Of a DNA stretch of 64,000 nucleotides, positions 44,378 to 57,300 are shown one piece after another. The stretch is taken from NCBI GenBank assembly GCA_020833005.1, contig JAJHRD010000002.1:1-64000 (forward strand), given 5' to 3'. This stretch comes from Candidatus Methanomethylicota archaeon. Its GTDB lineage: Archaea > Thermoproteota > Methanomethylicia > Culexarchaeales > Culexarchaeaceae. The notes under the pieces are model-generated. The model saw nothing but the letters and a program-made list of their open reading frames with translations, did no database searches and was not told the DNA's origin. The position numbers and the translations under genes are program-made. Positions within the stretch are counted from its first letter, which is position 1; each line of letters opens with the position of its first letter.

Positions 44378-44480
44378 GCCTCGGTCGTATAGCCCGGTCA
44401 AGTATTCAGGCCTCTCGAGCAACAATTGAATAGCGTGGGGAAAGCCTGAGACCCGGGTTCAAATCCCGGCCGAGGCACCA
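44378..44480 (+). tRNA. tRNA-Glu (anticodon CTC) with 25-nt intron
   Basis: Acceptor GCCTCGG pairs with CCGAGGC (44470-44476), discriminator A, encoded CCA. The 5' anticodon stem CAGGC and loop CTCTCG give anticodon CTC (44414-44416). The matching GCCTG appears only at 44444-44448, so about 25 bases (44418-44442, or shifted by one base) between positions 37 and 38 must be removed. This is the canonical archaeal intron site. The mature sequence closely matches the tRNA-Glu at 57200. Confidence 0.92.
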
Positions 44481-45094: not shown

Positions 45095-46243
45095 ATGAAG
45101 GCAATAATAATTGGATGCGGCCCAATGGGTCAAGCTGCAGCCATAGAAATGCTAAGAGACAAAGATTTAGAAGAAGTGAGCATATTAGATGTAGATTCAT
45201 CGAAACTTGAAGCAGCAAAGAGTAAACTTAAAGATGAAAGATTAAAAACCACACAAATGAACGTTGAGAAAACCGAGGAGCTAATGAAGATAGTATCAAA
45301 ATACGATTGCGCCATAATAGCTTTACCACACAAACTAGTGGTTAAAGTTGATGAAACATGCATAGATGCAGGGGTAAACACAGTGGACTTAGCATACGAA
45401 CCAGAACAATTGGAATTAAATGGGAAGGCTGAAGATAGGGGGGTCATGCTAATCCCAGGATGCGGTGTAGCCCCAGGATTAAGCAACATACTAGCAAGAT
45501 ACGGTTCATATAGGATGAGTAAAGTTGATGCTATAAAGATAAGGGTTGGAGGGATACCATTAAACCCAAAACCCCCACTAGATTATGGATTATTCTTCTC
45601 CCTAGAAAGCGTGATAAATGAGTATACGAGGCCTGCAAGGATAATAATGGATGGAAGAATGATGCATGTACCGGCACTATCTGGACTTGAAATCATAGAA
45701 GTACCTGAACTGGGCACCCTAGAATGCTTCTACACAGACGGCTTATCAACACTACCACACACCATGGGAAATGTGAGGGAAATGTGGGAGAAGACAATAA
45801 GATGGCCTGGACATGCAGAAAAGATGATGACACTAAGAGAATTGGGATTCTTCGAAAAAACTGGAGTAAAAATAGGCGAACTCGAAGTAAAACCAGTAGA
45901 CCTAACAATAAAAATGCTGAAAGAGAAATTGAAAGAAGAGGAGGATGTGATAGTACTAATAGTTGAAGTTATTGGTTATATGGGGGATGTATATGTGGAA
46001 GCAAAATACAAGCTAATAGACTACTATGATAGGGAATTGAAGGTTACAGCCATGGGCAGAACAACTGGATACACAGCTGCTTTAATAGCGAAAATGATCA
46101 TGAAAGGCAAAGTGAAGGGGAAGGGGGTAATACCACCAGAAAACCTATTAACAAAGGAGGGTATAGAAGAACTATTCAAAGAACTATGGAATAGAGGAAT
46201 TAGAATAGATGAAGAGGTAGTGTACAAGAAGACAAGCTGGTAG
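45095..46243 (+). CDS. Saccharopine/lysine-6-dehydrogenase-like oxidoreductase
   Basis: 382 residues. The Rossmann motif is IIGCGPMGQAAAIEML. YDCAIIALPHKL and VDLAYEPEQLELNG follow, with IPGCGVAPGLSNILARYG typical of the saccharopine dehydrogenase superfamily. The C-terminal domain (about 130-330) is the reductase-like insert. Lysine 6-dehydrogenase, carboxynorspermidine dehydrogenase and saccharopine reductase are all possible; the substrate is not decided by the sequence. It sits alone between tRNA genes and the C/D guide RNA. Confidence 0.82.
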   Translation: MKAIIIGCGPMGQAAAIEMLRDKDLEEVSILDVDSSKLEAAKSKLKDERLKTTQMNVEKTEELMKIVSKYDCAIIALPHKLVVKVDETCIDAGVNTVDLAYEPEQLELNGKAEDRGVMLIPGCGVAPGLSNILARYGSYRMSKVDAIKIRVGGIPLNPKPPLDYGLFFSLESVINEYTRPARIIMDGRMMHVPALSGLEIIEVPELGTLECFYTDGLSTLPHTMGNVREMWEKTIRWPGHAEKMMTLRELGFFEKTGVKIGELEVKPVDLTIKMLKEKLKEEEDVIVLIVEVIGYMGDVYVEAKYKLIDYYDRELKVTAMGRTTGYTAALIAKMIMKGKVKGKGVIPPENLLTKEGIEELFKELWNRGIRIDEEVVYKKTSW

Positions 46244-46349: not shown

Positions 46350-46408
46350 AGGCTCAGCCGGTTGATCCATCATCAACCTTCAGCCAAGGCTGAACTCCTC
46401 ATCGCCAA
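46350..46408 (-). ncRNA. Box C/D guide RNA with two 16S rRNA guides
   Basis: On the minus strand all four boxes occur in order: C box GCGATGA (46405-46399), a 15-base D' guide (46398-46384), D' box CTGA (46383-46380), C' box TTGATGA (46376-46370), a 12-base D guide (46369-46358) and D box CTGA (46357-46354). The D guide TGGATCAACCGG is complementary to CCGGUUGAUCC at the 5' end of archaeal 16S rRNA. The D' guide is complementary to CAAGGCUGAA, the conserved stretch near position 900. Counting five bases from each D box predicts 2'-O-methylation at a U near E. coli position 13 and a G near 902. Confidence 0.85.
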
Positions 46409-46449: not shown

Positions 46450-46971
46450 CTATGAGTAGAATTCAGGTGAAATCTTATATGTTAAAGCATAGATCAATGC
46501 AGTCTCCCAAGAATCCCTCCTAGTAAGTAGATTCTTAGTTAAAACTCCAATGGCACCAACATCAAGCTTAGTATGGGATAAACCACTTATGGCATCAATG
46601 GCATCACCAAGCTCCATCCCACCCAAAACCATATCAACAACCCTACGTGGCAATGGCATATAACCACCACAACCAAAAGACCAAAAACCACTGGAATCCA
46701 TAATGGCACACCATGAAGAAACAAACCAAACTCCAAACTTCTCAACAACACCACCCTCCATACCCACATAAAGATCTCCAGAGGAAATTTTAGAGGCATT
46801 TAAAGCCCTATTCATAGCTCCACGAATAATTTCATCCTCACCAATAGGAGTATGGGAAACACCACTCCCAACATCCACAGACAACAAATCAAAACTCCCA
46901 AAAACCCTACAAGCAACCCTCCTAACAGCCTCAACCTTAACAGGATTAACAGAGCCAACAACAATCCTCAT
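46450..46971 (-). CDS. Inosine/xanthosine triphosphatase (YjjX/DUF84)
   Basis: 173 residues from ATG 46971 (MRIVVGSVNPVKVEAV). The VGSVNPVKVEAVRR signature, VSHTPIGEDEIIRGAMNRAL and YVGMEGGVV are typical of the DUF84/YjjX family, which hydrolyses non-canonical purine triphosphates such as ITP and XTP to clean the nucleotide pool. It has its own start after a short A/T-rich gap and is transcribed on the same strand as the C/D RNA upstream of it. Confidence 0.88.
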   Translation of the reverse strand: MRIVVGSVNPVKVEAVRRVACRVFGSFDLLSVDVGSGVSHTPIGEDEIIRGAMNRALNASKISSGDLYVGMEGGVVEKFGVWFVSSWCAIMDSSGFWSFGCGGYMPLPRRVVDMVLGGMELGDAIDAISGLSHTKLDVGAIGVLTKNLLTRRDSWETALIYALTYKISPEFYS

Positions 46972-47044
46972 AAACACATCAATAAAGGAAAGAAATATGA
47001 AAGGAAAATTTAAACATTAAGATTTGGAATAAAAGAAGTTGAAG

Positions 47045-57199: not shown

Positions 57200-57300
57200 G
57201 CCTCGGTCGTATAGTCCGGCCAAGTATGCAGGCCTTTCGAGCCTGCGATCACCAGCATGGGTGACAGGAAACCCGGGTTCAAATCCCGGCCGAGGCACCA
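57200..57300 (+). tRNA. tRNA-Glu (anticodon TTC) with insertion in variable region
   Basis: Acceptor GCCTCGG (57200-57206) pairs with CCGAGGC (57290-57296); CCA is encoded. Anticodon arm CAGGC-CTTTCGA-GCCTG gives TTC (57236-57238) without an intron at the usual 37/38 site. Between position 43 (57245) and position 48 (57272) lie 26 bases, whereas the tRNA-Glu(CTC) isoacceptor has three. The extra 22-23 bases contain TCACC and GGTGA that can pair as a hairpin, with flanking CCTG and CAGG. This fits a non-canonical intron in the variable loop; exact splice sites are not determined. Confidence 0.88.

Follow-up and report, generated by a model that had tools for sequence, protein, structure and literature searches.

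Archaeal box C/D small RNAs (sRNAs) assemble with L7Ae, Nop5, and fibrillarin, and the nucleotide that each guide selects for 2'-O-methylation follows the N+5 rule. Some of these RNAs carry guides for two widely separated rRNA sites and have been proposed to act as folding chaperones, as with sR15 and sR17 of N. equitans (Dennis et al. 2015, PMC4644070, Table 3); an effect on rRNA folding is unproven for these examples as well. In eukaryotes, the essential RNA U3 contacts rRNA during ribosome assembly. Its pairing partners in the yeast 90S particle are the 5' end of 18S rRNA and, for its first 13 nucleotides (nt), the 5' arm of helix 27; it makes no pairs with the 3' pseudoknot strand (PMC5354517, PMC9196750). 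According to published statements, no U3-like sRNA is known in archaea (PMC3608112, PMC8339473, PMC3879963), and an earlier report of an archaeal U3 was later judged an artefact (PMC3879963). Here we describe a box C/D sRNA encoded in a 64,000-nt stretch of DNA from a hot-spring Candidatus Methanomethylicota archaeon (contig JAJHRD010000002.1, positions 1 to 64,000; referred to below as the window). Judged from its sequence, it is very probably a canonical archaeal dual-guide sRNA that directs fibrillarin to 2'-O-methylate U13 and G902 of 16S rRNA.

The 56-nt core of the sRNA occupies positions 46406 to 46351 of the window, on the minus strand (Table 1). In minus-strand order it reads GGCG-AUGAGGA-GUUCAGCCUUGG-CUGA-AGG-UUGAUGA-UGGAUCAACCGG-CUGA-GCC, with boxes C, D', C', and D in order and a terminal stem, GGC/GCC. 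A strict scan for the C/D'/C'/D layout on both strands of the window returned this single element. The scan, the sequence itself, and the aligned relatives all bear out the original prediction, which had proposed a dual-guide C/D RNA with four boxes on the minus strand. Box C, AUGAGGA, departs once from the RUGAUGA-type consensus; it is defined by columns A5, T6, G7, A8, G10, and A11, which are invariant in eight aligned homologues, and both guides are therefore 12 nt long. The prediction had instead taken gCGATGA as box C and given guide lengths of 15 and 12, of which the 12 stands and the 15 does not. That boxes and complements arose fortuitously in AT-rich intergenic DNA can be practically dismissed. 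The element is short, but nothing else favors chance: among 300 Markov-simulated windows, the layout appeared in 2 and a 9-nt 16S complement in either guide appeared in none, and the element is conserved across families.

In the organism's own 16S gene (G000:C1:175753-177254), both guides have exact complements of the predicted lengths. Its 5' end carries CCGGUUGAUCC, and CAAGGCUGAAAC lies directly upstream of the conserved AAACUUAAAGG. The D guide pairs over 11 bp without mismatch at 9-19 (E. coli numbering; helix 1 and the 5' strand of the central pseudoknot), and the D' guide pairs over 10 bp without mismatch at 899-908 (the loop and 3' arm of helix 27), with computed duplex energies of -19.3 and -14.8 kcal/mol, respectively. 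Both 12-nt guides have complements that span the N+5 position, as methylation guides do, and the rule puts the predicted methyl sites at U13 for the D guide and at G902 for the D' guide, in agreement with the U near 13 and the G near 902 proposed originally. The genome encodes fibrillarin (6e-100, in a search aimed at fibrillarin), through which the D guide would place a methyl group on U13 and the D' guide on G902; we infer that the RNA is expressed and that these nucleotides are actually methylated. The 899-908 site is present in 12 of 12 16S genes examined, and a second match to the D' guide (9 bp, AAGGCUGAA; 16S gene position 592 at L001) was found only in the three Culexarchaeum genes among them. 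As a separate observation, the 16S genes at L057 (G159) and L062 (G352) span about 1976 and 2002 nt, compared with about 1500 nt, suggesting 16S introns.

The central pseudoknot of 16S rRNA is formed by positions 17-20 and 915-918. The D guide covers 17-19, and the D' guide reaches no further than 908, within helix 27, and so misses 915; therefore, the RNA brackets the pseudoknot and does not hold both of its strands. The idea that it spans both sides of the pseudoknot thus survives for the 5' strand and fails for the 3' strand. The two targets are about 890 nt apart in sequence, and in the established 16S structure the U13 and G902 regions are near each other in the folded core. This combination of sequence-distant and structure-near sites places the RNA among the long-range dual guides of Dennis et al. 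(2015). None of the pairs in Table 3 of that paper lies at the 16S 5' end or joins U13 with G902 (PMC4644070). Some U13 guides may have been annotated earlier, in supplementary guide lists or in the 110-family Pyrobaculum survey.

Among cataloged families, the best Rfam match is sR60 (RF01309), an archaeal box C/D sRNA, at 47.3 bits for the window and 49.9 for the best relative, both below the gathering score of 50. From box C to the D' guide the two RNAs are nearly identical (GAUGAGGAGUUCAGCCU), so that the same helix 27 segment is targeted, whereas the D guide of sR60 (GGGAGUGACGGA) has no relation to the 5' end of 16S rRNA; sR60 therefore has neither the U13 guide nor this pair of targets. 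In yeast, snR41 guides 18S Gm1126 (PMC5199042). In contrast to the archaeal RNA, snR41 aims its second guide at Am541 and not at the 18S 5' end. We take Gm1126 to be the equivalent of E. coli G902, from a count along the yeast sequence, which fits a pseudoknot strand at 1139-1143. Even as a plain guide, the archaeal RNA would predict two methyl groups: one at U13, beside the pseudoknot, and one at G902, a nucleotide that probably corresponds to yeast Gm1126.

Sequence comparison indicates that the two-guide RNA is conserved in several archaeal lineages. A pattern comprising both guides matched 14 of 61 relatives; by inspection, the true C/D RNAs had a fixed 35-nt span and the others were chance matches. 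A model built from the true C/D RNAs (R1) matches 46351-46406 at 4.9e-24, a value obtained with the window copy among the training rows. With R1 and an exact-pattern scan for both guides in 84,980 named species, we found the same RNA in Culexarchaeum nevadense, Culexmicrobium profundum, two Methanomethylicota genomes, "Thermoprotei archaeon" B12_G16, and five genomes named Bathyarchaeota by their submitters. The search of related genomes proposed at the outset thus shows both guides to be kept. In the archaeal matches of the scan, the guide order is the same and the span is a constant 41 nt, whereas the bacterial matches (22 of 33) vary in span and were taken as chance.

The pattern of change in these RNAs follows their pairing. 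Among 15 homologues that keep both targets, the D' guide core UUCAGCCUU is identical in all 15, and the core GGAUCAACC is identical save for pairing-neutral A-to-G changes. These changes, inside the D-guide core (GGGUC, GGAUCGACC), still pair through G-U with an invariant 16S target. The D'-C' spacer and the flanks drift while the guide cores stay. The terminal stem has changed from GGC/GCC to GCG/CGC in G053 and G060, which is compensatory at two pairs, as expected of a true stem. In the small class to which G053 belongs, the RNA is present in 4 of 4 genomes that are at least 90% complete. Because flanking genes are common to relatives only within the genus, we rejected linkage as the cause of guide conservation. 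Two cases deserve separate mention. Culexmicrobium profundum carries two identical copies on short contigs (G005:C69:8174-8229 and G005:C166:4-59), which are probably assembly redundancy (contamination, 9%). In family f7, a version at G018:C74:5281-5337 (L027) keeps the U13 guide, has a D' guide that has drifted to CUUAGCCUUGG, and has a degenerate D' box, CUAA; it looks like decay of one half.

The same relatives bear on the suggestion, also made originally, that the RNA is unusually self-complementary and may alternate between a hairpin and a form bound to its target. The window copy does fold better than shuffled sequences (z = -2.9 with flanks and -2.5 as the 56 nt), because its guides happen to complement adjacent boxes. 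The relatives, however, have z scores from -0.03 (G005) through -1.1 (G002) to -2.55 and adopt different folds. The hairpins of the window copy thus lack conservation, and a hairpin switch is highly improbable.

The U13 guide belongs to a wider family. Together with its boxes (TGANGANGGATCAACCNNCTGA), it occurs in 40 of 398 genomes of the phylum, in 20 genera, whereas a reversed control pattern occurs in none. The D' partner often differs among these genomes. In family f17, a GCAUC-type D' guide pairs with 16S 817-827; in families f11 and f38, a UUUAGGCC-type guide pairs with 566-577 (helix 19/20); and in G380, the D' guide pairs over 13 bp at 559-571. For f17 and for f11/f38, scoring relied mostly on the 16S rRNA of the window's organism, and each match is modest taken singly, with shuffled guides reaching an equal score in 1 to 21% of trials; the matches carry weight because they recur within clades and because of the region in which they fall. 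All three partner regions that recur (566-577, 817-827, and 899-908) map to the base of the central domain of 16S rRNA.

Because its targets neighbor each other in the folded core, a single small ribonucleoprotein bound at both sites would hold helix 27 and the 5' end of 16S rRNA close together and unfolded until release. Helix 1, helix 27, and the central pseudoknot would then form later or in a set order. We infer simultaneous binding and an effect on folding only tentatively, and a folding role in 16S assembly seems to us possible, if somewhat less likely than not. Alternatively, two independent methylation guides could share one RNA by happenstance, with no coordinated binding and no role in folding, a reading that we consider close to an even call. 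Archaeal guide modules recombine freely (PMC4644070), and the U13 guide is found with several D' partners. Two further observations speak against coordination. Family f6, the main family of Methanomethylicia, is without the RNA in many genomes that are >90% complete, and the RNA is therefore dispensable. In addition, about nine other U13-guide RNAs have a D' guide with no clear 16S target, and the U13 guide therefore does not need a long-range partner everywhere. Pulling the other way, the U13/G902 pair retains one order and one spacing in several families, which belong to more than one class, and where the partner has been replaced by a recognizable one, the replacement stays at the base of the central domain.

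The comparison with U3 bears on the same question. The 5' domain of U3 contacts the same two rRNA areas in the same 5'-to-3' order, the 18S 5' end through box A and helix 27 through its 5'-terminal nt 1-13 (box A'), before the central pseudoknot forms (PMC5354517, PMC9196750, PMC4340053). The archaeal RNA is complementary to both areas, on the opposite arm of helix 27; this is complementarity and not binding. The match to two U3-contacted 18S areas makes chaperoning, itself an inference, a better hypothesis than the original prediction could have known. On a stronger version of the analogy, the RNA would do in archaea what the 5' domain of U3 does in eukaryotes, capturing helix 27 and the 5' end of 16S rRNA during assembly and so timing pseudoknot formation, with methylation secondary. 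We consider this unlikely. The archaeal RNA pairs with the loop and 3' arm of helix 27, where U3 takes the 5' arm; it has neither box B/C of U3 nor the hinge pairing; and the canonical C/D'/C'/D layout of the 56-nt RNA is that of an ordinary methylation guide. U3, by contrast, is larger, carries B/C and C'/D boxes, base-pairs with the 5' external transcribed spacer, and is needed for cleavage there. It has no known role in guiding methylation (PMC8162545). No U3 family was among the Rfam matches up to an E value of 10. A Brix/Imp4 search carries no weight here, because the family gave no match in any control genome. The distribution of the RNA is also patchy: the exact-pattern scan, which covered 84,980 species, returned no Asgard or euryarchaeal copy, but a shifted guide would escape it and it was not centered on any Asgard genome.

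Besides the shared areas and order, one negative result favors a U3 counterpart acting in trans. Dennis reportedly raised in 1997 the idea of a cis U3-like sequence in the 16S leader; in 12 genomes, the 400 nt preceding the 16S gene contain neither GATCAAC nor TTCAGCC, a weak negative, as only exact 7-mers were sought. Although the archaeal RNA is not U3, its action may resemble that of the U3 5' domain. If it does, a methylation guide would be the archaeal analogue of U3 in its rRNA contacts, by descent or by convergence. This parallel is worth testing because published statements deny a U3-like sRNA in archaea, and the RNA offers a concrete, conserved candidate at two 16S areas that matter for U3, with which the question of an archaeal U3 becomes testable.

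The sRNA is flanked by the 3' end of a YjjX-like gene on the same strand and by that of a convergent saccharopine-dehydrogenase-like gene. Cotranscription with the upstream YjjX-like gene is possible. An AT-rich stretch, TTTAAATTAA, was considered as an archaeal TATA box and rejected as too near the RNA.

Table 1. Parts of the box C/D sRNA and its neighboring genes in the window (guide targets in E. coli 16S numbering)
Feature	Position	Strand	Evidence
Whole box C/D sRNA, 56-nt core	46351..46406	-	model R1, aligned homologues, strict C/D scan
Terminal stem 5' strand GGC, pairs with GCC at 46351-46353	46404..46406	-	compensatory change in G053 and G060
Box C AUGAGGA	46396..46402	-	invariant columns in 8 homologues
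D' guide GUUCAGCCUUGG, pairs with 16S 899-908 (CAAGGCUGAA)	46384..46395	-	own 16S gene and 15 homologues
Box D' CUGA	46380..46383	-	sequence; CNGA in aligned homologues
D'-C' spacer (k-loop), 3 nt	46377..46379	-	length constant, sequence variable among homologues
Box C' UUGAUGA	46370..46376	-	TGANGA in homologues
D guide UGGAUCAACCGG, pairs with 16S 9-19 (CCGGUUGAUCC)	46358..46369	-	own 16S gene; present in 40 of 398 phylum genomes
Box D CUGA	46354..46357	-	invariant in homologues
Terminal stem 3' strand GCC	46351..46353	-	compensatory change, as for the 5' strand
Upstream same-strand gene, YjjX-like NTPase (named by inspection)	46450..46977	-	open reading frame; neighbor kept within the genus only
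Convergent gene, saccharopine-dehydrogenase-like (named by inspection)	45095..46243		open reading frame

Elsewhere in the window, the only Rfam matches at the gathering threshold are tRNAs. One of them, on the plus strand at 44378-44477 (46.5 bits), is about 100 nt long, was unreported by ARAGORN, and probably contains an intron; the tRNA-Glu at 57200-57300 is likewise long.
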